Assembly (NCBI RefSeq): GCF_002210105.1
Contig: NZ_AQQU01000010.1
Location: forward strand, 1 to 64,000
Length of the DNA stretch: 64,000 bases
Origin: Oceanicola sp. 22II-s10i
GTDB lineage: Bacteria > Pseudomonadota > Alphaproteobacteria > Rhodobacterales > Rhodobacteraceae
Direction: 5' to 3'
Of the stretch, positions 38,632 to 62,256 are shown one piece after another; positions within the stretch are counted from its first letter, which is position 1; each line of letters begins with the position of its first letter. The position numbers were made by a program, and so were the translations under genes. The notes under the pieces are model-generated. The model was given only the letters and a program-made list of their open reading frames with translations, ran no database searches and was not told where the DNA came from.

Positions 38632-38661
38632 TTGGACCGATGCAAACGCATGCACTAAAGA
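38632..38661 (+). promoter_or_regulatory. Possible promoter for gntR
   Basis: TTGGAC and TAAAGA separated by 18 bases lie about 90 bp before the gntR start. The match is moderate. A palindromic ATGCAAACGCAT sits in the spacer. Confidence 0.35.
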
Positions 38662-38682
38662 ACGCGCCGAACAGGCGCGTTC
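38660..38682. terminator. Stem-loop after the dehydrogenase operon
   Basis: A perfect 9-bp stem GAACGCGCC / GGCGCGTTC with a 5-base loop, 55 bp after the ACAD10/11-like gene and before gntR. No T-run follows, so it may be a weak terminator or a leader hairpin of gntR. Confidence 0.45.
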
Positions 38683-38750: not shown

Positions 38751-39554
38751 ATGGTTGGTCAGCGGACCAAGAAGGACGCGACGCGCAGCGTGGATCTGGG
38801 GACGACCCTGCACCGGCGCGTCTTCCTGATCCTGCTGGACGGGATCCGCTCCGGCCGCTACGCGCCCGGCGACGCCCTGCCGACCGAAGCGGCCCTGTCC
38901 GAGATGTTCGGCGTTTCGCGCATCACGGTGCGCCGGGCGCTGGCAGATCTGGCGGCCGAGAACCTCGTGGAAAGCCGCAAGGGGCTGGGCAGCTTCGTCA
39001 CCGCCGCCCCGCCGCCGACGCCGAAATGGGCCCCGATCGGCACCCTCAGGGGTGAAATCGTGCGCGCCGGGGAACTGCCGGTCGAGGTGCTGGAGTTCGA
39101 CCGCGTGGCGGCGCCCGCCGTCGTCGCGACCGCGCTGAAGATTCCCGAAGGCGCGACGGCGTTGCGGGTCGTCCGCGTGCGCTTCAGCCAGGGGATGCCG
39201 CTGACGCATTTCGTGGCCTGGGTGCCCAACGACATCGCCCGCGACTTCACCCGCCACGATCTGGAAACCCGCCCGCTCTACGAAATGCTGATCGAGACGG
39301 GAAACCGGTATGACCGCGTGACGCAGGCCATCGGTGCCTGCCTTGCCGATCCGGCAACTGCCTCGGCCCTGAAGGTCGACGTCGGGTCCGCCCTGACCTT
39401 CATCCGGCGGCTTCTGTCCTCGCCCGAGCGGCCGGTCGAATACCTCGAACTGCGCGCCTCGCCCGCCCGGTATGAAATCGCGATGTCGTGGAATATCGAC
39501 GACGAGCATGGGACGGTGAAAAGCGGATCGGTCGCCTACTCGACCCGGATCTGA
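38751..39554 (+). CDS. GntR-family regulator, HutC/UTRA subfamily
   Basis: A 267-residue regulator. A winged helix-turn-helix (about residues 22-85; ALPTEAALSEMFGVSRITVRRAL region) is followed by a UTRA ligand domain (about 105-255). UTRA regulators are usually released from DNA by a pathway metabolite. It lies directly upstream of, and in line with, the lyase/TTT/LeuCD-like genes, and a 28-bp inverted repeat overlapping their promoter is the likely operator. ATG 38751 has GCAGGA immediately upstream and GGAGGGGG slightly further. Confidence 0.9.
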   Translation: MVGQRTKKDATRSVDLGTTLHRRVFLILLDGIRSGRYAPGDALPTEAALSEMFGVSRITVRRALADLAAENLVESRKGLGSFVTAAPPPTPKWAPIGTLRGEIVRAGELPVEVLEFDRVAAPAVVATALKIPEGATALRVVRVRFSQGMPLTHFVAWVPNDIARDFTRHDLETRPLYEMLIETGNRYDRVTQAIGACLADPATASALKVDVGSALTFIRRLLSSPERPVEYLELRASPARYEIAMSWNIDDEHGTVKSGSVAYSTRI

Positions 39555-39646
39555 CGTCGGGGATCACCTCAACCCACTGAAATACAACACGTATTCCCGC
39601 CGCTCATCCGGATCGGCGAAGGTTGACGCATTTGCGCCACGACGGA

Positions 39647-39676
39647 TTGACAGCGCGAAATTCTGGTTGTTATAGA
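39647..39676 (+). promoter_or_regulatory. Sigma-70-type promoter for the lyase/TTT operon
   Basis: A perfect TTGACA -35 at 39647-39652 and TATAGA -10 at 39671-39676 with an 18-base spacer (or TTATAG at 17). It is the best promoter match noticed in the window and stands out as an AT-rich pocket. It points toward the lyase gene. Confidence 0.7.
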
Positions 39677-39690
39677 TATATGACAACCGG
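39663..39690. promoter_or_regulatory. Inverted-repeat operator overlapping the -10 (probable GntR site)
   Basis: CTGGTTGT-N12-ACAACCGG: arms match at 7 of 8 positions, and the AT-rich centre TATAGATATATG is itself nearly symmetric. It covers the -10 element, so a protein bound here would block RNA polymerase. The adjacent GntR/HutC protein is the obvious candidate; members of that subfamily bind GT...AC-ended palindromes. Confidence 0.65.
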
Positions 39691-39934
39691 GCCAGCGCGA
39701 TCCGTCGCAGCCATCCGGAACGGGAAGAGGAGCCCGGTCCGAAACGCGTCCGGTAGACGAGAAAGCGGTCATCCCACGGGCCGCGGGGAGGAAGGTCGGC
39801 AGGCGCAATGGCCTGTCGCACGGGGACTCAGGCGCGCATTGCGCGGCAGGTCCCGAATGGCGGGTGCTCGGCACCTGCACCCTTCCTTCCGGACATTCAT
39901 GGCCGCGCGGCGGCCGAAACCGAAAGGACGAGTC

Positions 39935-40825
39935 ATGGGCAGATCTGCAAAGAAACTCCGCGAGCTTCTCGCGGCGCCGGGGGTGCTTATGGCACCGGGC
40001 GTGGCCGACGGGGTGATGGCCCGGATCGTGGCCCGCGAAGGCTTCGACGCGGTCTACATGACCGGGGCGGGCACCGCGGCCACCCGGCTCGGCTGGCCCG
40101 ACATCGGGCTGATGACGATGACCGAGATGGCGGACAACGCCGGCCGGATCGCCAGCGCCAGCAACCTGCCGACCATCGCGGATGCCGACACCGGTTACGG
40201 CGGTCCGCTGAACGTCCGCCGCACCGTGCAGACCTACGAGGCCGCCGGTGTCGCCGCGCTGCATATGGAAGACCAGAACTGGCCCAAGCGCTGCGGGCAC
40301 CTTGCCGGCAAGACCCTGATCCCCGCGGAGGACATGGAGGCCAAGATCCGCGCGGCCTGCGACGCCCGCGACGATCCGAACTTCGTGGTCATCGCCCGCA
40401 CCGACGCCATCGCGGTCGAGGGTTTCGACAAGGCGCTGGACCGTGCGAAGCGCTACGAGCAGGCGGGGGCCGACGTGATCTTCGTCGAGGCGCCGACCTC
40501 GATGGAAGAGCTGGAGGCGATCCCGAAGGCCGTGAAGGCGCCGTGCCTGTTCAACATGGCGCTCAGCGGCAAGACGCCGTTCCTGTCGGTCGAGGAAATC
40601 GACCAGCTCGGCTTCAAGCTGGCGATCTACCCGAACCTGATGCTGATGGCGGCGATCCCCGCCGCGACCAGCGCGCTGCAGCGGCTGAAAGCGGACGGGT
40701 CGGTGAACGGTATGGCCAACGAGCTGATCAAGTTCACCGAGTTCTTCGACCTCATGGGCATGCCCGAGGTGAAGGCGCTGGAAGAGAAATACCAGGTCTC
40801 GGACATCGCGCGCGCCGGCTACTGA
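39935..40825 (+). CDS. Isocitrate lyase/PEP-mutase-family C-C lyase
   Basis: A 296-residue alpha/beta-barrel enzyme of the isocitrate lyase superfamily. DADTGYGG binds the metal-ligand complex, and MEDQNWPKRCGH carries Cys120 in KRCGH, the catalytic motif of the lyases (isocitrate, 2-methylisocitrate, 2,3-dimethylmalate) that is absent from PEP mutase itself. IARTDAIAVEG follows. It should cleave a substituted malate or isocitrate into pyruvate or glyoxylate plus a second acid. At under 300 residues it matches 2-methylisocitrate and dimethylmalate lyases. ATG 39935 follows GAAAGGA. Neighbours are a tricarboxylate transporter and a LeuCD-like hydro-lyase. Confidence 0.9.
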   Translation: MGRSAKKLRELLAAPGVLMAPGVADGVMARIVAREGFDAVYMTGAGTAATRLGWPDIGLMTMTEMADNAGRIASASNLPTIADADTGYGGPLNVRRTVQTYEAAGVAALHMEDQNWPKRCGHLAGKTLIPAEDMEAKIRAACDARDDPNFVVIARTDAIAVEGFDKALDRAKRYEQAGADVIFVEAPTSMEELEAIPKAVKAPCLFNMALSGKTPFLSVEEIDQLGFKLAIYPNLMLMAAIPAATSALQRLKADGSVNGMANELIKFTEFFDLMGMPEVKALEEKYQVSDIARAGY

Positions 40826-40833
40826 CGCCGGCT

Positions 40834-40860
40834 CCGCCGCCCTCGGGGAGGGGGCGGCGG
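40834..40860 (+). other. Intercistronic stem-loop before the TctC-like gene
   Basis: A 9-bp GC-only stem CCGCCGCCC / GGGCGGCGG with a 9-base loop, eight bases after the lyase stop. It has no T-run and probably modulates message stability within the operon. Confidence 0.5.
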
Positions 40861-40904
40861 CGTCCGGGCGAACCGGACCAGAAAGACAAATGGGAGGAGA
40901 AAAC

Positions 40905-41903
40905 ATGAAACGTTTCACGAGACGCGCCCTCGGCGCGCTGACGCTGGCTGCCTTTGCCGCAATGCCCGCACTGGCGCAGGAAGACTGGCCCAAATCGGGT
41001 GACCGCATCACCTTTACCGTGCCGTTCAACACCGGCGGCAGTGCCGACCGGCTGGCGCGGGGTCTGGCCAACTTCATGCAGATGGAGCTGGATGGCGTCG
41101 CGGTGACGGTCCAGAACCGGCCCGGCGGCGCGGGTGCCATGGGCGTCGCCTTCTTCTCGCAGCTTCCTGCGGATGGCAGCAACTTCCTCGTCATGCAGGC
41201 GACGCCGTTCCTTGCCAACGTGATCCTGCAGACCGACGTGCCGGTCGAGTGGGAGGACTTCTCGGTCATCAACACCCAGTGGACCGACTTTCCCATCGTG
41301 GCCGTGCCGACGGACGGCCGCATCACGGACATTCACGACCTGATTTCCAAGGCCAAGGAAGGCAAGGGCGCTGTCACCGCCGCGACGATGACCAGCGGCG
41401 GGTCCTACCTGCAGCAGCTGCTGATGTTCGACATGCTGGGCATCCCGCGCGAGAATATCCGGATGGTGACCTACGACGGCGGCGCGCCGCTGCGCACGGC
41501 GGTCGCGGGGGGTCAGGTCGACTTCACCTTCGTCGCCGCCAACGGATCCGAGTCGATCCGCGACCGCATCCGCTCGATCGCCGTGGTGACGGCGGATGAC
41601 GTCCCGCAATGGGACGGACCGAAGATCAACGAGGCGCTGGCGCAGTACGACGTGGATATGCCGCTGTTCAGCGAATACACCACCTCGGTCATTGCCAACG
41701 CGAAGTTCGAGGAACAGCATCCCGAGCGGTATGCGCGCTTCGTCGAGATCCTGAAGGCCACGCTGGAGCGCGAGGACTATCAGGCATGGCTGAAGGAAAA
41801 CGGCATCGGCGGGCGCTGGATGGGTCCGGAAAAGAGCCAGGAGCTGACGACCGCCGGCTTCAACGGTCTCAAGGACTACGCGGACCTGCCGGACAAGAAG
41901 TGA
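40905..41903 (+). CDS. TTT transporter solute-binding protein (TctC/Bug family)
   Basis: A 332-residue periplasmic binding protein of the tripartite tricarboxylate transporter class. A signal peptide ends near PALAQ (residues 22-26). PFNTGGSADRLARGLA and VVQNRPGGAG-like segments (TVQNRPGGAGAMG) are the Bug family's ligand loops. ATG 40905 follows GGGAGGAG; an ATG 15 bases upstream overlaps that site and is unlikely. It passes its ligand to the TctB/TctA-like subunits encoded next. Confidence 0.92.
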   Translation: MKRFTRRALGALTLAAFAAMPALAQEDWPKSGDRITFTVPFNTGGSADRLARGLANFMQMELDGVAVTVQNRPGGAGAMGVAFFSQLPADGSNFLVMQATPFLANVILQTDVPVEWEDFSVINTQWTDFPIVAVPTDGRITDIHDLISKAKEGKGAVTAATMTSGGSYLQQLLMFDMLGIPRENIRMVTYDGGAPLRTAVAGGQVDFTFVAANGSESIRDRIRSIAVVTADDVPQWDGPKINEALAQYDVDMPLFSEYTTSVIANAKFEEQHPERYARFVEILKATLEREDYQAWLKENGIGGRWMGPEKSQELTTAGFNGLKDYADLPDKK

Positions 41904-41911
41904 CCTCTGAC

Positions 41912-41933
41912 CGGGCGGCCACATGGCCGCCCG
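41912..41933 (+). other. Stem-loop after the TctC-like gene
   Basis: CGGGCGGCC-ACAT-GGCCGCCCG, a perfect 9-bp stem with a 4-base loop, eight bases after the binding-protein stop. It is the same arrangement as the hairpins behind other binding-protein genes in the window. Confidence 0.65.
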
Positions 41934-41969
41934 TCTCTGCCTTTTCCGCAATCAGCCCCGGAGTCCGTC

Positions 41970-42443
41970 ATGCCGTCCCCGACCGGAGGCCGCCGCGCGC
42001 GCCTTACCGAGCATGTCATTGTCCTTCTCGTCGTCGCGGGATGGGCCATCTGGTTCCTGCACGACTCGTGGCGGGTGTCAGACAGCGTCGAGAACCTGAT
42101 GCTGATCGCCCCCGCCGCCGTTCTGCTGCTGGCGCTGTGTCTCTTCGTCATTCTGCGTGCCGCGCGCGACCCGTCCCGCGAGGACGGCGAGGGCGGCAGC
42201 TTTGCGCCCCTGCTGTCCGACCTGCGCAGTCTCGGGTTCATCGCGCTTTTCGCCGCGTTCATCGGCGGGCTGGCGTGGGGCTGGTTCGATCTGGCGGCCT
42301 TCGTCTTCATCCTCGCCTCGCTTCTGCTGCTCGGCGAACGCAAGATCCTGCTGGCGGTGATCTACTCCGCCGCCTTCGCCGGCGCGTCGACATGGGCGCT
42401 GAGCGAGATGCTGCCCTACGACGTTCCGGCGCTGCTGTTCTGA
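41970..42443 (+). CDS. TTT transporter small membrane subunit (TctB family)
   Basis: A 157-residue membrane protein with four predicted transmembrane helices (about residues 15-32, 42-63, 86-110 and 112-145), matching the poorly conserved TctB family. It lies between the binding-protein and TctA-like genes, the standard order. Assignment rests on topology and position more than motifs. Confidence 0.85.
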   Translation: MPSPTGGRRARLTEHVIVLLVVAGWAIWFLHDSWRVSDSVENLMLIAPAAVLLLALCLFVILRAARDPSREDGEGGSFAPLLSDLRSLGFIALFAAFIGGLAWGWFDLAAFVFILASLLLLGERKILLAVIYSAAFAGASTWALSEMLPYDVPALLF

Positions 42444-42485
42444 GGGGACCGAGATGATCCGAACGCCCAACACACGGACCGCGCC

Positions 42486-43991
42486 ATGATCGACATGACA
42501 GCCTTTGCCTCGGCGCTCGAGATGCTGTCGGCCAGCTGGCAACCCTGGCTCGTCGTGCCGCCGGGCCTGCTGATCGGACTTATCTTCGGTGCCGTGCCGG
42601 GCCTTTCGGTGCCGGTGGCCATGGCGATCTTTCTGCCGATCACCGCCTACATGGATTTCCTGCCGGCCATCCTGTTCCTGACCGCGATCTTCACCGCAGG
42701 GTCGTTCGGCGGCGCGATCCCCGCGATCCTCGTCAACGTGCCGGGAACCGCGGCCGCAGTGGCGACCGCGTTCGACGGCTATCCGATGGCGCAGGCGGGC
42801 AGGCACAGCCAGGCGCTCGGCCTCGCGCTGGCGGCCTCCACCGTCGGGACGGCGATCGGCTACATCGTCCTGCTGCTGTTCGTCAGCCCGATCGCGGAGT
42901 CCGTCCTGAAACTCGGGCCGGTCGAGATGTTCATCATCGCCATGTGGGGCCTGACCCTGATCGCCGCGCTCGGCGCTGGCAGTTTCGCCAAGGGCGCGCT
43001 GGCGGGGACGCTGGGTGTCCTGCTGGGGCTGATCGGCTTTTCGGCGCTCGGGGACATGCGCGGGACGATGGGGCAGATGGCCCTGCTGGACGGGATTTCC
43101 ACGACCCCGGCGCTGATCGGCCTGTTCGCGGCGTCGGAGCTGTTCCGCCTGATCCGCTCGGACTACATCGTCGAGGACGAGACCAGCCGCCAGATCTCCT
43201 TCCGCCGCATCATGGAAGGGTTCGTGATGGTCCTGCAATATCCCGTGGTCTGGCTGCGCGGCGGTCTGCTGGGCGTCATCATCGGCGCCATTCCGGGTGT
43301 CGGCTCGGCGGTCGCGAACCTCGTATCCTATTCCGAAACCAAGCGCCGTGCAGACGATCCGGAGAGCTTCGGCAAGGGCGACCCGCGCGGCGTCGCGGCG
43401 TCGGAATCCGCCAACTCTTCGTCCGAAGGCGGCTCGATGGCGACACTCCTCGCGCTTGGCATTCCCGGCGGCGGGGCGACGGCGGTGATGCTCTCGGCCT
43501 TCGCGATGCATGACGTGACCGGCGGCCCCCGCTTCATCAGCGACAACATGGACATCATCTACGGGATCATCCTCGGCAACTTCGCCCAGGTCTTCATGCT
43601 GATCGTCGTGGGTCTCGGCTTCGTCTTCGTCGCCTCGTCCGTGGTGCGTGTGCCGGTGCGCTACCTCGCGCCGTCGGTCCTGACACTGGCCGTGTTCGGC
43701 GCCTATTCGCTGGTCGGCAACATCAGCGGACCGGTGACCGTGCTGGTATTCGCCATCCTCGGCTGGTTCCTGCGCCGCCACGGCTATCCGGTCGCCGCCG
43801 TCGTGATCGGCCTGCTTCTGGGAAGCATGGCCGAGGGAGAGCTGCTGCGCTCCTACCAGATCTCGGGCGGCGATTTGTCCTACATCTTCTCGCGGCCCGT
43901 CGCGATGGTTCTGGCGCTCCTGCTGCTGGCCTCGCTGATGCTTCCGCTCATCCGCAAGAGCCGCGCCGCGCGCACGGCCACAGCAAGGTAG
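42486..43991 (+). CDS. TTT transporter large permease (TctA family)
   Basis: A 501-residue, roughly 12-helix inner-membrane protein. The TctA signature GAVPGLSVPVAMAIFLPIT lies near residues 36-54, and the internal repeat GAIPGVGSAVANLVSY near residue 262 mirrors it. SSEGGSMATLLALGIPGG and AFAMHDVTGGPRFI are also typical. With the TctC and TctB genes upstream it forms a complete carboxylate importer dedicated to the flanking lyase and hydro-lyase. Confidence 0.93.
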   Translation: MIDMTAFASALEMLSASWQPWLVVPPGLLIGLIFGAVPGLSVPVAMAIFLPITAYMDFLPAILFLTAIFTAGSFGGAIPAILVNVPGTAAAVATAFDGYPMAQAGRHSQALGLALAASTVGTAIGYIVLLLFVSPIAESVLKLGPVEMFIIAMWGLTLIAALGAGSFAKGALAGTLGVLLGLIGFSALGDMRGTMGQMALLDGISTTPALIGLFAASELFRLIRSDYIVEDETSRQISFRRIMEGFVMVLQYPVVWLRGGLLGVIIGAIPGVGSAVANLVSYSETKRRADDPESFGKGDPRGVAASESANSSSEGGSMATLLALGIPGGGATAVMLSAFAMHDVTGGPRFISDNMDIIYGIILGNFAQVFMLIVVGLGFVFVASSVVRVPVRYLAPSVLTLAVFGAYSLVGNISGPVTVLVFAILGWFLRRHGYPVAAVVIGLLLGSMAEGELLRSYQISGGDLSYIFSRPVAMVLALLLLASLMLPLIRKSRAARTATAR

Positions 43992-43999
43992 GTGACGCC

Positions 44000-45400
44000 A
44001 TGTCCGACCCGAAGACCATCATCGACAAGATCTGGGAGGAGCACGAGATCCTGCGCGACGAGGGTGGCACATCGCTGCTCTATGTCTCGCGGCACCTCGC
44101 GCATGACGGATCGATCCACGCCTTCACCTTTCTGGAGGAACGCGGCCTGACACCGCGCCGGCCCGACCGGATCTTCGCGACGCCGGACCACGGCACGCCG
44201 ACCGTCAGCCACGACATGGCGGACCTCACGGACCCCGACCAGCGTCGGGTCGTCACAGCGCTGGCGGCGAATGCCAAGCGGCACGGGTTCACCCATTTCG
44301 GTCTGGGCGACAGGCGGCAGGGGATCGTCCATGTCGTCGGGCCGGAACAGGGCATCTCGCAGCCCGGACTGGTCATCGTCTGCGGCGACAGCCACACTTC
44401 GACCCATGGCGGCGTCGGCGCGCTGGCCTTCGGCATCGGGGCCTCCGAAGTGATGCACGTGCTGGCGACCCAGACCCTGTGGATCAAGAAGCCCAGGACG
44501 ATGCGGATCACCATCGACGGCGAGCGTCCGGCCGGCGTGACGGCCAAGGACATCGTCCTGTCGATCATCGCCCATATCGGTGCGAATGGCGGTGCGGGTC
44601 ATGCCATCGAATACGCGGGATCGCTGATCCGCTCGCTCGACGTGGAAGAGCGGCTGACCGTCTGCAACATGTCGATCGAGGCCGGGGCCCGCAGCGGCAT
44701 GATCGCGCCGGACGAAACGACGTTCGAATACCTGAAGGGCAAGCCCTTCGCGCCCGGTCCCGAGCACTGGGAGGCCGCGGTGGAAAGCTGGCGCGCGCTG
44801 CGCACGGACGAGGGCGCGGTGTTCGACCGCGAGGTCCGGCTGGACGCCTCTCAACTGACGCCGATGGTCACATGGGGCAACAGCCCCGAGGACGCGCTGC
44901 CGATCACGGGCCGGGTGCCCGACCCGGCGCAGGCCAAGGACGACATCACCCGCGACGCGATCCTGCGCACGCTCGACTACATGGGGCTGACGCCGGGTAT
45001 GGCGCTGACGGATGTGACGGTGGATCAGGTCTTCATCGGGTCCTGCACCAACTCCCGTATCGAGGATCTGCGCGCCGCCGCCGCCGTCGCCGGGCGCGGC
45101 AGGGCCGTGGTCCCCGCGATGGTCTCGCCGGGATCCTCGACCGTCAAGGCACAGGCCGAAGCCGAGGGGCTGGACCGCATCTTTCGGGATGCGGGGTTCG
45201 AGTGGCGGGAATCCGGCTGCTCGATGTGCGTGGGCATGAACGGCGACCTCGTGGCCTCGGGCAAGCGCTGCGCCTCGACCACCAACCGCAACTTCCGCGG
45301 CCGGCAGGGGCAGGGCAGCCGCACCCACCTGATGAGCCCCGCGATGGCCGCCGCCGCCGCGCTCACCGGACGCCTGTCCGACGTGCGAGACCTGGGCTGA
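44000..45400 (+). CDS. LeuC-type hydro-lyase, large subunit
   Basis: A 466-residue aconitase-superfamily subunit. The [4Fe-4S] cysteines are Cys349 (IGSCTNSRIEDL), Cys407 and Cys410 (GCSMC). CGDSHTSTHG and SIEAGARSGMIAPD are intact, as in 3-isopropylmalate dehydratase LeuC. The small subunit follows 11 bases later. No other leucine-biosynthesis gene is nearby; the neighbours are a carboxylate transporter and an isocitrate-lyase-family enzyme. A catabolic hydro-lyase on a related substrate, like 2,3-dimethylmalate dehydratase DmdA, is therefore plausible. By sequence alone leuC would be the automatic name. Confidence 0.9.
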   Translation: MSDPKTIIDKIWEEHEILRDEGGTSLLYVSRHLAHDGSIHAFTFLEERGLTPRRPDRIFATPDHGTPTVSHDMADLTDPDQRRVVTALAANAKRHGFTHFGLGDRRQGIVHVVGPEQGISQPGLVIVCGDSHTSTHGGVGALAFGIGASEVMHVLATQTLWIKKPRTMRITIDGERPAGVTAKDIVLSIIAHIGANGGAGHAIEYAGSLIRSLDVEERLTVCNMSIEAGARSGMIAPDETTFEYLKGKPFAPGPEHWEAAVESWRALRTDEGAVFDREVRLDASQLTPMVTWGNSPEDALPITGRVPDPAQAKDDITRDAILRTLDYMGLTPGMALTDVTVDQVFIGSCTNSRIEDLRAAAAVAGRGRAVVPAMVSPGSSTVKAQAEAEGLDRIFRDAGFEWRESGCSMCVGMNGDLVASGKRCASTTNRNFRGRQGQGSRTHLMSPAMAAAAALTGRLSDVRDLG

Positions 45401-45411
45401 GGAGACCGACG

Positions 45412-46011
45412 ATGGACAAATTCACCAAACTCACCGCACCGGCCCTGCCGGTCGACCAGCCCAACGTCGACACCGACCAGCTGGCCCCGGCGCGCTTCCT
45501 GCGTCGTCCGCGCGGCGATGGCTACGCGGATGTGCTGTTCCACGACCTGCGCAAGGCAGAGGGCGGGCACATCGTGGATGATCCCCGGTTCGCGGGGGCC
45601 GGGATCGTCGTGGCCGACCGCAACTTCGGCGGCGGGTCCAGCCGGGAACAGGCGGTCTGGTCTCTGGTCGACGCGGGCTTTCGCTGCGTGATCGCCAGCA
45701 GCTTCGGCGACATCTTCTACGCCAACAGCGCCAAGCACGGGCTGCTGACGATCCGGCTGGACAACGCGGTCTGCAAGGCCCTGCGTGATGCCCTTCACGC
45801 GACACCCGGCGCCGAGATGACCGTCGATCTCGACGCGCAGACGATCGTCGCGCCCGATGGCGAAGTGATCAGCTTCGAGATCGAGCCCTCGCGCCGCAAG
45901 CGCCTGTTGCAGGGTCTGGACGACATCGACCTGACGCTGACACATGACGCGGCCATCGGGGCGTTCGAGGCAGAGTACAGCCGCAGGAAACCCTGGCTGG
46001 AACTGAACTGA
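45412..46011 (+). CDS. LeuD-type hydro-lyase, small subunit
   Basis: A 199-residue swivel-domain subunit. VDTDQLAPARFLRRP and DRNFGGGSSREQAVWSL are the LeuD/aconitase-domain-4 hallmarks (the latter binds the substrate carboxylate). It pairs with the preceding large subunit. The substrate-specificity loop after NVDTDQL reads APARFLRR rather than the common IPKQFLK, hinting at a substrate other than isopropylmalate. It is the last gene of the operon. Confidence 0.9.
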   Translation: MDKFTKLTAPALPVDQPNVDTDQLAPARFLRRPRGDGYADVLFHDLRKAEGGHIVDDPRFAGAGIVVADRNFGGGSSREQAVWSLVDAGFRCVIASSFGDIFYANSAKHGLLTIRLDNAVCKALRDALHATPGAEMTVDLDAQTIVAPDGEVISFEIEPSRRKRLLQGLDDIDLTLTHDAAIGAFEAEYSRRKPWLELN

Positions 46012-46527
46012 GCCCCTGCCTTTTTCACCCCCGGACCAAGTGGATGGGGTCAACGCGCTGTCGGACACGCGGCGCGGCGTGAAGCGGACCACCGTGCGGT
46101 CCGTGCAGCGGCTCGTTCCGGCGAGGGCCGCTCTTTCCGTTTCGGACGCCCTTGCCCCTGCCACACTGCGCTCAGGCCAGCGCTTGCGAGGGTTGAAGCC
46201 ATTGTCGCAGGTGGCCTAGGCGCGCGCCTTTCTCTCAGGACAGCTCGTCCGTGAACACCTGGACAACATCCGGGTCGAAGCTTGCTCGCCAACCTGTGTC
46301 ACGCCCGAGACCTGATCGCGGCACGGCATGACGATGACAGCCACCACCGCCCGTAAAAGCGCGTCGAAGGACTAACCCGACAGCCTTCAAGCCCCGCTTG
46401 TAACCCCCCACGGGGACAGGGGACGCCGCCGGGGCGCGTTACTAGTTCCCGGTGAACAAAGTAAGAAGTGCCCATCACCGATGTTGCACTGATTAACATA
46501 ATACAGTCAAAGTCAGGGAGAACAAAA
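46012..46527. other. Gene-poor region with decayed transposase sequence
   Basis: A 516-bp gap with no intact gene. It includes the IS3-type fragment at 46285-46356 and ends in an unusually AT-rich leader (about 46450-46527) before the TRAP binding-protein gene. The rest shows no recognisable coding content. Confidence 0.5.
46285..46356 (+). pseudogene. IS3-family transposase fragment
   Basis: The in-frame peptide LANLCHARDLIAARHDDDSHHRP then stop matches, in degenerate form, the pattern HAR-x-LI-AAW-R-DDYN-HHRP found near the C-terminus of IS3-family (OrfB) integrases. No intact upstream or downstream part remains. It lies about 170 bp before a TRAP cluster whose other side carries a different IS3 fragment. 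Confidence 0.5.
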
Positions 46528-47565
46528 ATGACGTATTCCAGAATACTTACGGCCGGGGCGATCTTCGCCACCACCGCCGTTTCCGCCGCCGCACAGGACG
46601 TCACGCTGCGGTATTCTTCCTGGCTGCCGCTGCAGCACTACATCAACACGGACATCGTGTTCCCGTACTTCGAGCAGATCGAGGAAGTGACCGAGGGACG
46701 CGTGGTCGTCGAAGCCCTGCCCAAGACGGTCGGCACCGCCGCGGGCCAGTTCGACGTCGTGCGGGACGGGCTGGCAGACATTTCCTTTATCGTGACCGGT
46801 TACACGCCGGGCCGCTTCGTCATGTCCGAGATCGGCGAGATGTCGTGGGTCGGCAACGATCCCGCGGTATTCGCTCCGATCTTCTGGGACATTTTCGAGG
46901 AATCCATCGAGCCGCTCGGCGAATACGACGGCGTCAAGGTGATGACCCTGTTCGCGAACGCGCCCGGCCACATCCTGACGACCGAAAAGAAGATCGAGAC
47001 CATGGAGGACCTTCAGGGCCTCAAGCTGCGCACCGCGGGTCCCTACGCCACGTCGATGCTGGAAGCGGTCGGCGCCGTGCCGATCCTGAAATCCGCGAAC
47101 GAGGCGTTCGAGCTGATGTCGACCGGCGTGATCGACGGCAGCCTCAGCCAGCCTGACACGGTGATCAGCCTGAACTGGCTCGACCTTGCCAGCAACTACA
47201 CGATCGTTCCCGGCGGCCTGTTTTCGGCCACGCTCGGCGTGATCATGAACGAGGACAGCTGGTCCCGCATCTCGGCCGAGGACCAGGAAGCCATCTGGGC
47301 GATCTCGGGCCGCGCCCTGGCCGAAAAGGCCGGCGGTGCCTTCTCGAAGGCTGTTGGCGAGGCGATCGAGCAGATGAATGCAACCGAAGGCATGACCGTC
47401 GACACCGTCAGCGACGACATGCTCGCCCAGTTGCAGGAAGCGACCGTCCCGCTCGAGGAAGCCTGGGCCGAGCGCGCCCGCGAGAAGGGCATGGAGAATC
47501 CGCTCGAGGTGCTGGCCGAGTTCCGCCGCCGCGTCGCCGAAGCGGAATCCCAGGCGACCAACTGA
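46528..47565 (+). CDS. TRAP transporter solute-binding protein (DctP family)
   Basis: A 345-residue periplasmic binding protein with a signal peptide ending near SAAAQ (residues 19-23). Arg168 in LQGLKLRTAG is in the position that binds the ligand carboxylate in classical DctP proteins, unlike the pair at 12001/13135. ATG 46528 follows AGGGAG. It starts a three-gene TRAP operon. The leader is AT-rich, and both flanks carry transposase relics, consistent with acquisition by transfer. Confidence 0.92.
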   Translation: MTYSRILTAGAIFATTAVSAAAQDVTLRYSSWLPLQHYINTDIVFPYFEQIEEVTEGRVVVEALPKTVGTAAGQFDVVRDGLADISFIVTGYTPGRFVMSEIGEMSWVGNDPAVFAPIFWDIFEESIEPLGEYDGVKVMTLFANAPGHILTTEKKIETMEDLQGLKLRTAGPYATSMLEAVGAVPILKSANEAFELMSTGVIDGSLSQPDTVISLNWLDLASNYTIVPGGLFSATLGVIMNEDSWSRISAEDQEAIWAISGRALAEKAGGAFSKAVGEAIEQMNATEGMTVDTVSDDMLAQLQEATVPLEEAWAERAREKGMENPLEVLAEFRRRVAEAESQATN

Positions 47566-47589
47566 GACTGAAGCAGAGGAGGAGCAGTC

Positions 47590-48117
47590 GTGCTCAAGGC
47601 CGTGGAAATAGCAATCAGCCTCATTGCGGCAGTGCTGTTGTTCCTCCTCATGATGATGACCTTCGTCGACGTCATCGGGCGAAACTTCTTCAACCGGCCG
47701 CTGAACGGGGCGGCCGAGATGACCGAGTTGATCCTCGCGGCCGTCGTCTTCCTGATGCTGCCCTTTATCGCCATCCGGCAGAAGCACATCGTCGTGGACC
47801 TGTTGGACATCATCCATAACCGGGTCTTCAAGGCGATTCAGACCTTGTTGATGATTGCCGTCGGGACGTTCTTCTTCGGGATGATGGCGTTGCGGCTATG
47901 GCATCTCGCGGACAGCACCGCGCGCTACAACGATGCGACGCCGACGATGCAGATCCCGATCGCGCCGCTGGTCTACGGCATGTCCATCCTGTCGGCGATC
48001 ACCGCCGCCTGCTTCCTGGCGCTTCTGCTCAACTTCTTCCGCGACACGCGAGGCACGCCCGGCGACGCCGACGCGTCCGATGGCAAATCCATGGTCACGG
48101 AAAATTCCAATGTCTGA
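47590..48117 (+). CDS. TRAP transporter small permease (DctQ family)
   Basis: A 175-residue membrane protein with four predicted helices (about residues 5-28, 42-62, 80-105 and 128-150). MTFVDVIGRNFFNRPLNGAAE is a typical DctQ segment. The start is GTG 47590 with GAGGAGGAG just upstream. It is encoded between the binding protein and large permease. Confidence 0.9.
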   Translation: MLKAVEIAISLIAAVLLFLLMMMTFVDVIGRNFFNRPLNGAAEMTELILAAVVFLMLPFIAIRQKHIVVDLLDIIHNRVFKAIQTLLMIAVGTFFFGMMALRLWHLADSTARYNDATPTMQIPIAPLVYGMSILSAITAACFLALLLNFFRDTRGTPGDADASDGKSMVTENSNV

Positions 48118-48167
48118 ACTTGCTGCGGGCAAGACCGACCGCCGCACGTCTGGGGGAAATTACTAGG

Positions 48168-49460
48168 ATGACAGTCGCTTTGATGGGCTTCGCTTCGGCG
48201 TTTGCCTTGATTTTCATGCGCGTGCCGATCGCCCTTGCCATGGGCCTCGTGGGTTTTCTGGGCTTTGGCTACCTCGTGGGATGGCGCCCGGCCTCGTCGA
48301 TGCTGGCCATGGTGTCGCGGGAAAGCACGATGTCCTATTCCATGGTGGTGATCCCGCTGTTCATCCTGATGGGCAACCTCGTCGCCGGCACCGGAATCTC
48401 GCGCGAGCTTTACCGTGCGGCGCAGGCTTTCCTTGGTGCACGCAAGGGCGGGCTCGGCGTGGCCACAGTGGTGGCCAGCGGCGGGTTCGCCTCGATCTGC
48501 GGGTCGTCGGTGGCGACCGTGGTGACCATGGGCAAGGTGGCCATGCCGTCGATGCGGCAGTACGGCTACGATGACAGCCTGTCGACCGCGTCGATCGCTG
48601 CGGGTGCGACCCTCGGCATCCTCATTCCGCCAAGCGTCCTGCTGGTGATCTACGGGATCATCACCGAAAGCCACATCGGCATGCTGTATGCCGCAGGGCT
48701 GATACCCGGCATCATCGGCATATTGCTGTACATCGTGGCGGTGCGCTGGACCGTCTGGCGTTCGCCGGCTTCGGCGCCCACGGCCGCCAGGGCCAGCTGG
48801 TCCGAACGCTGGTCCTCGATCGGGCATATCTGGGCGGCGGTCCTGCTGTTCGTGCTGGTGATCGGCGGCATCTATTCCGGCTTCTTCACCACGACCGAGG
48901 CCGCGGGGTTCGGAGCCTTCGGCGCCATGGTCATCGCATTGCTCCGCCGCAAGCTGGGGCTGAAGCAGTTCTACGAGATTCTGGCCGACACCGCCGAGAC
49001 GACAGCGATCCTCTTCGCGCTCATCATCGGGGCGGGGCTGTTCACCGAGTTCCTGAACTATTCGGGCGCACACGACGCACTGCTGAGCTTTGTCACGGAG
49101 TCGGGCTTCTCGCCGGCCCTGGTGATCTTCGTCATATGCGTGATCTACATCGTGCTGGGCATGATGATGGAATCGATCTCGATGATCCTGCTGACGGTGC
49201 CGCTGTTCTTCCCCGTGGTCGTCGGCCTTGGTTTCGACCCGATCTGGTTCGGAATCCTCCTTGTGATCCTGTGCGAACTCGGGCTGATCACCCCGCCGAT
49301 CGGCATCAACCTGTTCGTGATGCGCAGCGTCACGCCGGATGTTCCGATCACGCGCATCATCAAGGGCATCGTGCCATTCATCGTCGTGGACCTGCTTCGC
49401 GTTGCGCTGGTGGCGCTATTGCCGGGCATTGCGCTCTACCTTCCTTCGGTGCTGTTCTGA
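48168..49460 (+). CDS. TRAP transporter large permease (DctM family)
   Basis: A 430-residue, about 12-helix inner-membrane transporter. ASGGFASICGSSVATVVTMG, GATLGILIPPSV and GLITPPIGINLFVMRS are DctM landmarks. ATG 48168 is preceded by a GGGGGAAA tract. It completes the TRAP operon. Downstream is a 615-bp gene-poor region with a second transposase relic. Confidence 0.93.
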   Translation: MTVALMGFASAFALIFMRVPIALAMGLVGFLGFGYLVGWRPASSMLAMVSRESTMSYSMVVIPLFILMGNLVAGTGISRELYRAAQAFLGARKGGLGVATVVASGGFASICGSSVATVVTMGKVAMPSMRQYGYDDSLSTASIAAGATLGILIPPSVLLVIYGIITESHIGMLYAAGLIPGIIGILLYIVAVRWTVWRSPASAPTAARASWSERWSSIGHIWAAVLLFVLVIGGIYSGFFTTTEAAGFGAFGAMVIALLRRKLGLKQFYEILADTAETTAILFALIIGAGLFTEFLNYSGAHDALLSFVTESGFSPALVIFVICVIYIVLGMMMESISMILLTVPLFFPVVVGLGFDPIWFGILLVILCELGLITPPIGINLFVMRSVTPDVPITRIIKGIVPFIVVDLLRVALVALLPGIALYLPSVLF

Positions 49461-50075: not shown

Positions 50076-50864
50076 CTATCCGGCGTCGCGCGCCTTGCGG
50101 AAGTCCGGCTTGCGTTTTTCCTTGAAGGCTTTGGCGCCTTCCTGGGACTCAGCGGTCTGGTAGAAGAGCGCAAGGGTCTCCATCCCTGAATTGCTGATGC
50201 CGCGGATGTTGTCGCTGTCGGAATTGAACGAGCGCTTGGCAATGGCGATCGCCGTGGGGCTGCGTTCCATCAGCTCGGCACACCAACTCTCGACGGTCGC
50301 GTCGAGCTCGTCATGGGGGACAACGATGTTGGCCAGCCCCATGCGTTCGGCCTCCTGCGCGCTGTATCGGCGGCAGAAGTACCACAGCTCGCGCGCTTTC
50401 TTCTCGCCGATCACCCGCGCGAGGTAGGCCGTGCCCCAGCCAGGATCGACAGACCCGACCTTGGGGCCGACCTGACCGAAGATGGCCTTCTCGGAGGCGA
50501 TCGTGATGTCGCAGAGGGTGGCCAGCACGTTGCCGCCGCCGATCGCATAGCCCTGAACCCGCGCGATCACGGGGACGCGTGCATCCCGGATGGCGGTATG
50601 AAGCTCCTCGATCGGAAGCCCGACCACGCCGCGACCGTCGTAGGAACCTTCGTGCGCCGTCTGGTCGCCCCCGGTGCAGAACGCGCGTTCGCCTGCGCCG
50701 GCCAACACGATCACCCCAATCGCGGGATCGTTGTCGGCATCTCTGAAGGCAAGGATCATCTCTTCGACTGTTTCACCGCGGAAAGCGTTCATGACGCTTT
50801 CCCTGTCGATCGTAATTCTCGCGACGCCGTTCGCCTTGGTATAGGCGATATCCTGGAAATCCAT
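50076..50864 (-). CDS. badI: BadI/MenB-like crotonase (2-ketocyclohexanecarboxyl-CoA hydrolase-like)
   Basis: A 262-residue crotonase. IGGGNVLATLCD, FGQVGPKVGSVDPGWGTAYLAR (its Asp is the MenB/BadI active-site Asp) and the tail AFKEKRKPDFRK closely resemble BadI, which opens the ring of 2-ketocyclohexanecarboxyl-CoA to pimelyl-CoA, and its relative MenB. MenB is less likely: no menaquinone genes are near and the neighbours are an acid transporter and CoA ligase. ATG 50864 follows AAAGGAG. It is the last gene of the minus-strand train, after two intercistronic hairpins. Confidence 0.8.
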   Translation of the reverse strand: MDFQDIAYTKANGVARITIDRESVMNAFRGETVEEMILAFRDADNDPAIGVIVLAGAGERAFCTGGDQTAHEGSYDGRGVVGLPIEELHTAIRDARVPVIARVQGYAIGGGNVLATLCDITIASEKAIFGQVGPKVGSVDPGWGTAYLARVIGEKKARELWYFCRRYSAQEAERMGLANIVVPHDELDATVESWCAELMERSPTAIAIAKRSFNSDSDNIRGISNSGMETLALFYQTAESQEGAKAFKEKRKPDFRKARDAG

Positions 50865-50896
50865 TCTCGTTCTCCTTTGCAGTGGATCGGGATGCG

Positions 50897-50941
50897 GACG
50901 CCCCGGCTCGGGCCGGGGCGTCACCGGTCCGTTTCCGGACC
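50897..50941 (-). other. Double stem-loop after the ABC binding-protein gene
   Basis: A GGTCCG-TTTC-CGGACC hairpin (50926-50941) lies directly after the binding-protein stop. A perfect 11-bp stem GACGCCCCGGC / GCCGGGGCGTC with a 4-base loop follows (50897-50922). There is no T-run. It probably stabilises the binding-protein message and reduces expression of the next gene. Confidence 0.65.
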
Positions 50942-50949
50942 CGTTGGCG

Positions 50950-52179
50950 TCAGTCCTCGTATTTCGACGCCGCGTCGCGGGCGATGGACCAGACGATGTC
51001 GTCGTAGGCCGAGAACCAGTCCGTCTCCTGCACCCACGTCTCGCCGTCCCAGGATTCGATCCGCGTCTTGCCGCCGCCGCCGTGATCTTCGGGCGTGACG
51101 GTCACCGCGGCCGTGAGCCCGGCATTGTCGAAATCGCGGATGCTCTCGTACCCCGCTTTGATCGCCTCGGCGGTCAGGGGACCATCGGTCTGCTCGGCGG
51201 CGATGCGGATGGCCTCGAAGGCGATCGAGTAAAGTGCGAGACCGACCATGTAGTAGCTGTTCTCGGTTCCCGCGACGTCGCCGGCACCCTTGCCGGCACC
51301 ATAGACCTTGTCCACGATCTCCTGCCGCAGGGGGTTTTCGAGATCGCTGTCGACCACCGAGCTGCGCTTCAGCCCTTTGCCGAGCCCGCCCATGTTCTCG
51401 ATGTCGGTCTTGCTGACCCAATTGACGCCGATGTATTTCTCCATCGGGATGCCGTTGCGCCGCATTTCACGGGCCGCGACGACGTGCATGTTCGAGATAC
51501 CCCAGAACAGCACCCAGTCGGGGCCATAGCGACGGACCTGCGACCAGACCGAGGACTGGTCGACGCCGGGCAGCGGGAACGGGAAGAAGCGGATGTCGGC
51601 GTTCTCGCGCTTGGTGATCTCCTCGAGCACCGGCTGCGGTTCATAGCCGAACGGATGGTCCATGAACACGAAAGCAACCTTCGTATCCTCCAGCGACCCG
51701 CCGCTCTGCTGCTTGATGTAGTCCATCGCGTTCGCGGCCTGCCCCCAGTAGGTGGGCCCCACGGGGAAGATCCAGTCGAACACGTCGCCCACGATCGCAT
51801 CGCCGCGACCGACGAGCGGCTGCATCATCACGTTGCCGTCGCGCATCGCACGCGGCAGGACCGCCTGCGAGACGGGCGTCGACATGGTGTCGAAGATCAG
51901 CACGCCCTCGCGCTTGTAGGATTCGTAGCATTCGATCCCGCGCTGCGGCTCGTTCGCCGTGTCCTGCACAAGGAATTCGACCTTGTGCCCTTCGATCCCG
52001 CCCTTGTCGTTGACGAGGGTGGCGAGGTCCTCTGCCGCCTGAACGAACGAGGGCGTGGCGAAGCTGTAGGATCGCGACAGGTCGTAACAGAGACCGAACT
52101 TCACGGTCTCCTGTGATTGGGCAATAGTTCCCAGGCTGCACGCCGCGACGGCGCACAGGGACAACAATTTGATTTTCAT
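50950..52179 (-). CDS. ABC transporter substrate-binding protein (branched-chain amino acid/aromatic acid type)
   Basis: A 409-residue periplasmic protein of the LivK-like family 5 binding proteins. A signal peptide covers about residues 1-20 and ends near IAQSQ. FGLCYDLSRSYSFATPSF and NDKGGIEGHKVEFLVQD are typical N-terminal ligand-lobe segments; variants with this N-terminus usually accompany transporters for aromatic or fatty acids rather than amino acids. ATG 52179 follows GGAGGAAAAAC. It is downstream of livF in the same operon. Confidence 0.9.
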   Translation of the reverse strand: MKIKLLSLCAVAACSLGTIAQSQETVKFGLCYDLSRSYSFATPSFVQAAEDLATLVNDKGGIEGHKVEFLVQDTANEPQRGIECYESYKREGVLIFDTMSTPVSQAVLPRAMRDGNVMMQPLVGRGDAIVGDVFDWIFPVGPTYWGQAANAMDYIKQQSGGSLEDTKVAFVFMDHPFGYEPQPVLEEITKRENADIRFFPFPLPGVDQSSVWSQVRRYGPDWVLFWGISNMHVVAAREMRRNGIPMEKYIGVNWVSKTDIENMGGLGKGLKRSSVVDSDLENPLRQEIVDKVYGAGKGAGDVAGTENSYYMVGLALYSIAFEAIRIAAEQTDGPLTAEAIKAGYESIRDFDNAGLTAAVTVTPEDHGGGGKTRIESWDGETWVQETDWFSAYDDIVWSIARDAASKYED

Positions 52180-52231
52180 GTTTTTCCTCCGTTGATTGGC
52201 TGCCCGGTTGGCCCAGGTCATAGTTGATTGT

Positions 52232-53038
52232 TCAGGTCAGCCAGCGCTTGCGCCGGCGGTAATGCTTGATGTCGCGGAAGTTGACGCCATGACCGCCCAG
52301 GTAGAATTCCTGGATGTCAGGGTTGTTCTTCATCGCGGTTGCGGTGTCGTGCATGACCACCCGACCGGATTCGATCAGGTAGCCGTGGCTGACGAGGTCC
52401 AGCGCGGCGAATGCGTTCTGTTCGACGAGCAGGACCGAAATACCCTCTTCCCTGTTGATGCGCCGGATGATCGAGAAGATCTCGGTCGTCAGCATGGGCG
52501 AGAGCCCGAGGCTCGGCTCGTCCAGCATGAGCATCCGGGGCCTTGTCATCAGCGCCCGCGCGATGGCCAGCATCTGCTGTTCGCCGCCGGACAGGTAACC
52601 GGAGGTGGCGTTGCGGCGTTCGGCAAGGCGCGGAAAGAACGTATAGGCCCGGTCGAGGGCGCTACGCATCTCGGCGCGGCTCATCTCGACGGGGCAGGCG
52701 GCCTCGAGGTTCTCGTTTGTCGTCAACTGCTCGAAGACGTGGCGACCCTCGAGCACCTGAACGATGCCCAGCTTGACCCTGTCCTGCGGACTGAGGGTGT
52801 TGACCAGTTGCCCGGCGTAACGGATCTCGCCCCGCGTGACCTTGCCGCGCGCCGCCTGCAGCAGCCCGCTGATGCTGCGCAGCGTGGTGCTCTTGCCTGC
52901 ACCATTGGCCCCCAGAAGCGCGATCAGCTGACCCTCCGGCACGTCGAGCGAGACGCCGCTGACCGCGAGCGAGACGTTGTCATAGACCACCTCGACGTTG
53001 CGGAGGCTCAGCAGGGGTTCGGCGGACGCCGTCGTCAT
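52232..53038 (-). CDS. livF: ABC transporter ATP-binding protein (LivF family)
   Basis: A 268-residue ATPase. Walker A GANGAGKST (about residues 43-51), Q-loop region VQVLEGRHVFEQLT, signature LSGGEQQMLAIARAL, Walker B LMLDEPSLGLSP and the switch His region (LLVEQNA) are intact. It has an extended basic C-terminal tail (HYRRRKRWLT) beyond the usual ~235 residues. It pairs with the LivG-type ATPase at 56901 to energise the LivHM channel. It starts nine bases after livM. Confidence 0.92.
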   Translation of the reverse strand: MTTASAEPLLSLRNVEVVYDNVSLAVSGVSLDVPEGQLIALLGANGAGKSTTLRSISGLLQAARGKVTRGEIRYAGQLVNTLSPQDRVKLGIVQVLEGRHVFEQLTTNENLEAACPVEMSRAEMRSALDRAYTFFPRLAERRNATSGYLSGGEQQMLAIARALMTRPRMLMLDEPSLGLSPMLTTEIFSIIRRINREEGISVLLVEQNAFAALDLVSHGYLIESGRVVMHDTATAMKNNPDIQEFYLGGHGVNFRDIKHYRRRKRWLT

Positions 53039-53046
53039 GGTGGGCC

Positions 53047-54120: not shown

Positions 54121-54122
54121 CG

Positions 54123-55010: not shown

Positions 55011-55012
55011 CG

Positions 55013-58345: not shown

Positions 58346-58363
58346 CTGGCTCTCTCCTATGCG

Positions 58364-58436
58364 GTCCAAGAAATGGGAACTTTCTTTGGACTGCATGCCG
58401 AGCCGACGTGAAGAGGTCCAGCGGGCCATGCAGTCC
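58364..58436. promoter_or_regulatory. Cluster of inverted repeats upstream of tetR (candidate operators)
   Basis: Arm 1 GTCCAAGAAA (58364-58373) pairs with TTTCTTTGGAC (58381-58391) with one unpaired base. The right arm runs into GGACTGCATG (58388-58397), which pairs perfectly with CATGCAGTCC (58427-58436). The block is 19-91 bp before the tetR start and 62 bp or more beyond the biotin-carboxylase stop. It could be operators and a promoter for tetR-liv, or an RNA structure between the two halves of the operon. Confidence 0.5.
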
Positions 58437-58497
58437 GTCTGCGTAGCCTCGAGACATACTCGTCGCTCACGGTGCAATGCAACATGCGCGACATCCC

Positions 58498-60480: not shown

Positions 60481-60490
60481 CTGCGTCCCC

Positions 60491-62098: not shown

Positions 62099-62150
62099 GA
62101 GCCGGCCCCTTTCCCGTGCCGGTCGGCGGTCAGGATGGCGGGACGGTCCC

Positions 62151-62177: not shown

Positions 62178-62256
62178 CGGGGCGTCTGTAAGTGTCTTGC
62201 TGTGTCATCTGGCCCTTCGGCGATCTGGAAGTCTCATGCGCGTTTCGCGGGTGGCG

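Follow-up and report, generated by a model that had tools for sequence, protein, structure and literature searches.

What acid would be handled by an operon that joins a LeuCD-like hydro-lyase to a carbon–carbon lyase and to an importer of its own? The question is raised by a gene set of Oceanicola sp. 22II-s10i, located at positions 38751–46011 of a 64,000-nucleotide stretch of contig NZ_AQQU01000010.1 (hereafter the window, read on the forward strand). The open reading frame list gives seven genes there, all open frames and all on the + strand. A first-pass annotation, made from the letters alone, had noticed in this interval a regulator, a lyase with the KRCGH motif, a TctC-TctB-TctA importer and a LeuCD pair with three cluster cysteines, all in line, and every one of these is confirmed. 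We judge it fairly probable that the operon is dedicated to the breakdown of a single C4 dicarboxylate, a C-substituted acid of the malate/maleate type. This reading draws on the gene content, the conserved gene order, the paralogy of LeuCD, the lyase motif, the linkage between TctA and lyases, and the recurrence of an operator-like motif. In what follows, L, G and C numbers denote loci, genomes and contigs, respectively.

Results

Gene content and operon limits

The first gene (38751..39554) encodes a GntR/HutC-subfamily regulator with a GntR DNA-binding domain (PF00392, 71 bits) and a UTRA effector domain (PF07702, 89 bits). Behind it lie a carbon–carbon lyase of the isocitrate lyase/phosphoenolpyruvate mutase (ICL/PEPM) family with the KRCGH motif and an alkylmalate-lyase-like pocket (39935..40825), the three subunits of a tripartite tricarboxylate transporter (TTT), namely the periplasmic binding protein TctC (40890..41903), the small membrane subunit TctB (41970..42443) and the large membrane subunit TctA (42486..43991), and finally the LeuC-like large subunit (44000..45400; PF00330, 542 bits) and the LeuD-like small subunit (45412..46011) of an aconitase-superfamily hydro-lyase. 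From the lyase to LeuD the intergenic gaps are 64, 66, 42, 8 and 11 nucleotides, which is compatible with a single transcript. The gap between gntR and the lyase measures 380 nucleotides and contains a promoter-like site, so the operon probably starts there. The operon proper is probably lyase-tctCBA-leuCD, with gntR alongside. Thus, of the earlier view that all genes form one unit behind gntR, the part from the lyase to LeuD, with its gaps of 8–66 nucleotides, holds, whereas the long gap and its promoter-like site set gntR apart.

The LeuCD pair

Both subunits belong to the LeuC/LeuD type and score above the cut-offs of the curated models (LeuC, TIGR00170, 653 with a cut-off of 560; LeuD, TIGR00171, 163.5 with a cut-off of 116), and the cluster cysteines of LeuC, 349, 407 and 410, lie in the expected motifs. 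The source genome holds three aconitase-family large genes: besides the window gene, contig C1 has a leuC and contig C5 an aconitase-like gene. Matches to the small subunit occur at each of these three sites. The C1 leuCD pair is about 5 kb from a leuB homologue. The first-pass annotation had proposed a genome search for a second leuCD by leuB; such a pair exists, and the window LeuCD is not the sole copy.

In a LeuC tree of 53 rows, a biosynthetic clade of 28 rows (support 100/96) unites E. coli LeuC and the C1 copy with 26 sequences of other genomes, and none of these 26 is known to lie near a lyase. All 22 LeuC rows with a lyase within 10 kb, the window's included, fall outside this clade. 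The rows of L173 and L171, which have no lyase that close, are outside it as well, and the remaining row comes from a fragment of the window gene. Its position outside the 28-row clade, together with the C1 leuCD near leuB, separates the window LeuC from the biosynthetic isopropylmalate isomerases. Signature residues were counted over distinct rows (window and E. coli had each been entered twice), with L173 and L171, whose lyase is about 10 kb off, included. LeuD position 90 (E. coli numbering) is Pro in 19/19 distinct biosynthetic rows and Val in 20/21 distinct associated rows, and LeuC position 39, which presumably corresponds to a substrate-contacting Gln of aconitase, is Gln in 27/27 biosynthetic rows and His in 15/21 associated rows. 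The window LeuD reads GSSREQAVWSL where E. coli LeuD has GSSREHAPWAL. The data support the view that the window LeuCD is an extra, non-biosynthetic paralogue; we reject a role in leucine biosynthesis on the basis of copy number, tree and signature residues.

Genomic linkage was assessed in 60 genomes (the source and 59 relatives), which were searched for lyase (E up to 1e-40), LeuC and TctA, and the coordinates were compared; the resulting counts are not independent, given shared ancestry and the many genomes that have a genus in common. Of the 61 LeuC matches, in which one split gene counts twice, ten have a lyase at 8 kb or less, and all ten are in genomes with a further LeuC. No lyase-linked LeuC occurs in the 36 single-copy genomes, and 10 of the 12 extra copies are lyase-linked (within 8 kb). 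As a separate observation, the LeuC match at G030:C3:2131926-2133313 is split in two, and one of the parts contains a TGA, indicating a frameshift, a pseudogene or an assembly error.

The lyase and its predicted pocket

The lyase starts with an ATG at 39935, preceded by AAAGGAC, and its loop reads EDQNWPKRCGH. Its placement in the ICL/PEPM superfamily is based on a PF13714 score of 165 bits, the KRCGH motif and the metal- and oxoacid-binding residues; D58, D85, D87, K121, C123, H125, R158 and E188 (PrpB numbering) are all conserved. It scores 303.9 against the PrpB equivalog model TIGR02317, whose cut-off is 354.4, and 132.8 against the PEP mutase model, whose cut-off is 319.6. Its loop is of the KRCGH type, and the PEP mutase motif we take to be EDKxxxxxNS. 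The earlier assignment as a lyase, not a PEP mutase, is therefore upheld by motif and score, and on the same two lines we reject a PEP mutase or phosphonate identity.

Among solved structures the best match is 3fa3 (named 2,3-dimethylmalate lyase), followed by the petal death protein. In a tree of 107 rows the window lyase falls within a group of nine (support 100/99), lyases of nicotinate-type clusters (see Discussion) form a separate supported group, and E. coli PrpB is far away. Two pocket positions differ between these enzymes. Position 241 (E. coli PrpB numbering) is Met in the window lyase and Leu, Phe or Ser in its group. Arg occupies it in E. coli PrpB, in Burkholderia 3eoo (named methylisocitrate lyase) and in 4iqd (named carboxyvinyl-carboxyphosphonate phosphorylmutase), and is missing from 3fa3, oxaloacetate acetylhydrolase and the petal death protein. 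At position 213, Glu is found in 63 of 104 other lyase rows, and the window group (n = 10) has Leu, Ala, Thr or Met. The window lyase itself is nonpolar at both sites, and in the lyases of L221–L225 both are nonpolar or small. Since the window lyase lacks the Arg241 of PrpB, an alkyl substituent is favoured, and since nicotinate-type lyases retain Glu213 and Tyr241, this substituent may be larger than methyl. The residues thus suggest a pocket that takes an alkyl group on C3, perhaps a bulkier one than methyl. The set of TTT-linked lyases as a whole is mixed, because the TctA-linked lyases of L051, L167, L168 and L170 retain Arg241.

Several other lyases deserve mention in their own right. The genome search gave no full-length isocitrate lyase match. 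A second lyase of the source genome, at C1:635569, adjoins the genome's sole PrpF match, and the surrounding region (C1:603841-645900) holds two MmgE/PrpD genes, a set of tripartite ATP-independent periplasmic (TRAP) transporter genes and a TctA within about 35 kb, making it another substituted-acid locus. The Nitrososphaerota lyases of L113, L115, L119, L121 and L127 form their own clade with Tyr or Phe at 241, and no LeuC turned up in the DNA available for these five loci.

The importer and its linkage to lyases

The transporter is identified as a TTT system by TctA (PF01970, 397 bits), with TctC (24.8 bits, cut-off 27) and TctB (22.5 bits, cut-off 29.1) both matched just under their Pfam cut-offs. 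TctC in addition matches solved TTT binding proteins (best 1.3e-17), and TctB is named from its score and its position between TctC and TctA. Among the 150 TctA matches listed from the 60 genomes, all 13 that share 50% identity or more with the window TctA (the window's own included; 12 genomes) are within 8 kb of a lyase, and none of the other 137 is, two of them lying at 9.7 and 10.3 kb. The association between TctA and lyase is above chance.

Orthologous operons and exchanged parts

Other genomes also carry the unit, either in the same order or with parts swapped. In a sample of 289 genomes of the class, source included, two clear orthologous operons occur in other families of the class. 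One (L221, G130) keeps the order lyase-TctC-TctB-TctA-LeuC-LeuD, with identities of 72, 64, 53, 77, 74 and 66%, respectively, and has a GntR/UTRA gene (42%) nearby. The other (L222, G092) keeps the six-gene order with identities of 66% for the lyase, 65% for TctA, 59% for LeuC and 49% for LeuD. A third locus, L223 (G323), shows lyase-LeuC-LeuD and no transporter on a short contig. On plasmid pSM-1 of Skermanella mucosa the order is TctCBA-LeuC-LeuD-lyase, and the GntR gene there shows no detectable similarity to the window's. Four loci of one genus (L051, L167, L168 and L170) have divergent arms, GntR-lyase on one side and TctC-B-A-LeuC-LeuD on the other, TctB being named by position. With the order recurring and the close TctA matches lyase-linked, the first-pass proposal of a dedicated catabolic unit for import, hydration and cleavage gains support.

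Parts are exchanged in other loci. Genes in the loci were called with a simple script; many starts are approximate, and several names (Liv, sensor kinase and Ppd) were assigned by eye. Among the best 80 of 591 candidate lyase loci, ranked by match to the window lyase, 18 have a LeuC-family neighbour at 10 kb or less from the lyase, some contigs being too short to tell. Six loci of the family (L207–L212) combine TctC, TctA, PrpF and lyase, with TctB detected in three; Roseibium has TctCBA, AcnA and lyase; and L054 has TctCBA, two lyases, an aconitase-like gene and PrpF. In rhizobia and G031, LeuCD and lyase stand with ATP-binding cassette (ABC) genes of the branched-chain type (by eye), two PuuE-like deacetylases, an FAD dehydrogenase and Asp/Glu-racemase-family genes. 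LeuCD-type genes and lyase occur with HyuAB and isochorismatase in L053, L166 and L169 (also with an FAD dehydrogenase in the latter two). In L057 and L058, LeuCD and lyase are accompanied by MmgE/PrpD, an acyl-CoA dehydrogenase and an acyl-CoA synthetase that has CoA-binding and ATP-grasp domains. TctC, lyase and LeuCD come together with a fatty-acid-CoA ligase in a public Variovorax record. The CoA-activating genes of these relatives fit a monocarboxylic product. Two annotated records with lyase-linked LeuCD label LeuCD as the leucine enzyme and give the lyase a generic family name.

Three further points concern these relatives. In the lyase-LeuCD cluster of L042, L060 and L214, one of the two racemase-like genes is confirmed as Asp/Glu racemase family, and the PuuE-like, FAD and racemase-like genes are 76–91% identical between G031 and two Rhizobium records, which suggests spread by horizontal transfer. 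The cluster of L058, on a contig labelled Chitinophaga pinensis, differs little from that of the betaproteobacterial L056, and the contig is likely misbinned. The HyuAB, isochorismatase and PuuE-like neighbours led us to consider tetrapyrrole maleimides or cyclic imides as substrate sources; nothing in the window bears on either.

The regulator and a candidate operator

The GntR winged helix and UTRA domain place the regulator in the GntR/HutC subfamily, and a score of 120 bits with an equivalog cut-off of 220 shows that it is not HutC itself. Upstream of the lyase, a promoter-like TTGACA-18 nt-TATAGA (39647..39676, + strand) was read directly; the scanner misses it, as it requires T at the last position. 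Overlapping the -10 element is a candidate GntR operator, TTGTTATAGATATATGACAA (39667..39686, + strand), the core of a palindrome at 39665–39688. By itself the palindrome is not significant, an equally good one arising in 79 of 500 shuffles. The case for it comes from recurrence, in that sites similar to the 20-base core are present beside 7 of 11 evaluable related gntR genes, with 0.006–0.019 expected per region as computed from the rest of each locus. These matches are intergenic and cover 16 of 20 positions in L215, 15 in L219, 14 in L167, L168 and L221, and 12 in L051 and L170. The other four evaluable regions (L097, L098, L166 and L169) show no convincing copy, the L042 region is too short for evaluation, and the core is absent beside both gntR genes not detectably similar to the window's (L216 and L220). 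Because the regions were picked after an earlier scan had shown matches in several of them, and because the seven regions represent about three lineages (L215; L221; the L051–L219 group), the recurrence lends the putative operator moderate support. The HutC-type operator consensus, which we take to be GTNTANAC, has no match in the window.

Genes around the operon

On the upstream side, a perfect 9-bp hairpin (38660..38682, + strand) lies 3' of an acyl-CoA dehydrogenase gene and is a candidate boundary of the preceding unit; it has no T run and might act as a terminator. Downstream, a TRAP transporter (46513–49460) was set aside as a member of the unit, being separated by about 500 nucleotides; TRAP genes near other lyases are just 23–44% identical to it where matched. 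About 5 kb from the operon, at 50950–57692, is a branched-chain-type ABC transporter (named by eye) with an embedded acyl-CoA synthetase. The same unit is found at L222:3-6783 in G092, directly upstream of the orthologous operon, with six genes 54–75% identical, and it may serve one pathway with the import-and-cleave operon. The interval 50076–63916 also contains BadI-like, biotin-dependent carboxylase, crotonase and HMG-CoA-lyase-like genes, of which the scanned proteins fall below curated cut-offs; these genes possibly serve the catabolism of alicyclic or terpenoid acids. An isovalerate route through the carboxylase and HMG-CoA-lyase-like genes at 57.7–64 kb, where the last protein is incomplete as read, was not upheld, the scanned proteins being below the cut-offs and a BadI-like gene lying nearby.

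Discussion

How might the operon work? In the route that we propose, TctC would capture a substituted dicarboxylate from outside, and TctBA would import it. The LeuCD-like [4Fe-4S] hydro-lyase would then hydrate a maleate form or, if a 2-hydroxy acid is taken up, shift its hydroxyl by way of the maleate form. Cleavage of the C2–C3 bond by the lyase would yield glyoxylate or pyruvate as the 2-oxo acid, together with a short monocarboxylic acid, which would be converted to its CoA ester and oxidised. The GntR protein would repress transcription from the palindrome overlapping the promoter until the substrate or a product is present. From the genes and their arrangement we infer each reaction and its place in the route, an alkyl substituent, the repression and a single substrate shared by all the gene products.

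A number of observations weigh against this route. The same TctA subfamily is paired with an aconitase in Roseibium, which would suit a tricarboxylate. As for the pocket, 22 of 104 other lyases likewise lack both Glu213 and R, K or Q at 241, and the role that we ascribe to Arg241 is deduced from a few named structures; moreover, according to PMC11982470, simple exchanges at two other residues between the two lyase types shifted specificity only slightly. The extra LeuC copies of G002 and G050 lie farther than 8 kb from a lyase, at 10.3 and 46.7 kb, respectively, and no LeuC in the tree is closer to the window's than that of G050. Conversely, the lyases of L059, L224 and L225, which belong to the window group (58–62% identity), have no LeuCD in the fetched DNA. 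Nor are all close transporters lyase-linked. The TctA relatives on Halomonas and Vibrio plasmids have no lyase within the fetched 9-kb flanks and are near two-component genes (annotated in Vibrio, by eye in Halomonas), and a 58% TctA in G282 has no lyase in the 20 kb read.

The closest precedent is the lower nicotinate fermentation of Eubacterium barkeri, with its reaction scheme of DmdAB and Dml. Like that system, the window combines a LeuCD-family hydro-lyase and an ICL/PEPM-family lyase in one cluster, following a logic of hydration and then cleavage. The differences lie in the parts. Unlike the window, nicotinate-type loci have a shorter, HacA-type large subunit (about 400 residues) and PrpF/Mii, B12-binding, MutL and Hmd-like genes, their lyases, with Tyr241 and Glu213, group in another clade, and the window queries detected no TTT in these loci. 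We called L087 nicotinate-type on the basis of its NAD-binding dehydrogenase, serine-dehydratase-like protein, HacA-type LeuCD, B12-binding protein, PrpF, MutL and lyase; L090 and L091 match most of these genes in tblastn, the dehydrogenase not being found in L090. L091 itself, a spirochaete contig from a Treponema metagenome-assembled genome, carries a LeuCD-type pair, a B12-binding protein, PrpF, MutL, Hmd-/Hgd-like genes and a lyase. With the L087 queries, no Hgd-, Hmd-, Mgm-, Mii- or MutL-like gene appeared within 10 kb of the window lyase, so that the operon is not a nicotinate cluster. The parallel with DmdAB and Dml drawn in the first-pass annotation thus survives as kinship of chemistry and not as direct equivalence with Dml, the nicotinate-type lyases being in a different clade. 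The pair that hydrates and cleaves is already known from nicotinate fermentation; what is new here is the different type of hydro-lyase, the different lyase clade and the importer of its own.

Other known systems share single elements. The lower half of the 2-methylcitrate cycle (AcnD-PrpF-PrpB) likewise uses hydration by an aconitase-superfamily enzyme and then a KRCGH lyase, but in the window LeuCD replaces AcnD, the importer is dedicated and the lyase lacks the Arg of E. coli PrpB; neither PrpC (E. coli PrpC query) nor PrpF was found near the operon. The window also shares a complete C-B-A transporter with the TctCBA of Salmonella and, unlike it, has this transporter in an operon with a lyase and a hydro-lyase, beside a GntR-type gene. 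The CoA-dependent itaconate/methylsuccinate pathway Ict-Ich-Ccl (PMC12290011, PMC9875883) is similarly a catabolic route for branched short dicarboxylates, in one version with its own transporter; it uses CoA thioesters and a citramalyl-CoA lyase, whereas the window operon has no CoA transferase and is predicted to cleave the free acid. The tar system for trans-aconitate also unites a regulator, an importer and a first enzyme at one locus for one organic acid; there, however, a PrpF-family isomerase feeds the tricarboxylic acid cycle, and the excerpted text describes no lyase or LeuCD (PMC11495376). Finally, the pantaphos hvr cluster of Pantoea ananatis has a PEPM-family gene together with LeuCD homologues, but it is biosynthetic and its PEPM-family member is a PEP mutase homologue (PMC7858074). 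We found no description of an operon of lyase, LeuCD and TTT in the open-licence literature, which omits most subscription papers, and within these bounds the earlier claim that the system is undescribed stands.

Which acid, then, would the operon serve? The candidates are an alkylmalate and an alkylmaleate. One answer, a special case of the C4-dicarboxylate route, is that the cell takes up citraconate or dimethylmaleate, hydrates it to citramalate or dimethylmalate and splits this product into pyruvate and acetate or propionate. The resemblance of the lyase to 3fa3 and then to the petal death protein favours it, as does the combination of a LeuCD-type hydro-lyase with a lyase of this family in L087, L090 and L091; yet the lyases of these clusters, with Tyr241 and Glu213, are of the other clade, the window group is smaller or nonpolar at both sites, which suggests a larger C3 group, and the operon has no PrpF/Mii gene, the genome's single PrpF match being on C1 beside another lyase. 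We regard this version as possible and would not expect it. A weaker alternative, and one that we think rather unlikely, sees in the operon a copy of the methylcitrate cycle's lower half, supplied by the importer with a methylcitrate-, aconitate- or isocitrate-like tricarboxylate. TTT transporters are named for tricarboxylates, and this TctA subfamily occurs with PrpF and lyase (L207–L212), with an aconitase-like gene, PrpF and two lyases (L054) and with AcnA and lyase (Roseibium). Speaking against it are the lack of both Arg241 and Glu213 in the window lyase, its score of 303.9 with the PrpB cut-off at 354.4, its distance from E. coli PrpB, and a partner that is LeuCD and no aconitase. The methylcitrate-like acid that the first-pass annotation had listed among the substrates is accordingly weakened by the PrpB score and the missing Arg. 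At the bulky end of the range, 2-isopropylmalate, an intermediate of leucine synthesis that is released by microbes, is an example of an alkylmalate that might be imported, isomerised by the LeuCD paralogue, which would have been recruited from synthesis into breakdown, and cut to glyoxylate and isovalerate; the operon would then belong to a modular class of pathways whose importer, hydro-lyase (LeuCD, AcnA, or aconitase-like plus PrpF) and lyase pocket are swapped for each acid. This proposal is speculative and, in our estimate, improbable.

Two readings leave catabolism aside. The LeuCD genes could be a redundant isopropylmalate isomerase that landed by chance beside a transporter and a lyase, and both subunits do exceed the curated leuC/leuD cut-offs; we hold this to be very improbable, since they lie outside the biosynthetic clade with changed signature residues, their order with lyase and TTT is conserved in genomes of other families, and lyase linkage is the rule for extra LeuC copies (10/12). 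Hardly credible at all is a set of phosphonate natural-product genes with a PEP mutase and a LeuCD-like phosphonomethylmalate dehydratase, as proposed for pantaphos, in whose cluster PEP mutase and LeuCD homologues do stand together (PMC7858074). The KRCGH motif and the score of 132.8 with a PEP mutase cut-off of 319.6 contradict it, an E. coli LeuA query gave no synthase near the operon, just one weak match alone at 63.3–63.6 kb, and the genome's likely PEP mutase is at L047 among aminoethylphosphonate-type neighbours (by eye). In L047 (source genome C36:255000-274900), genes resembling Ppd and a transaminase (by eye) accompany this likely PEP mutase, and a separate TTT follows.

Should the proposed C4-dicarboxylate route be correct, a catabolic module for branched organic acids would lie hidden behind leucine labels. 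LeuCD-type pairs outside the biosynthetic clade would act in breakdown and not in leucine synthesis, and genome-based metabolic models would misassign such pairs.

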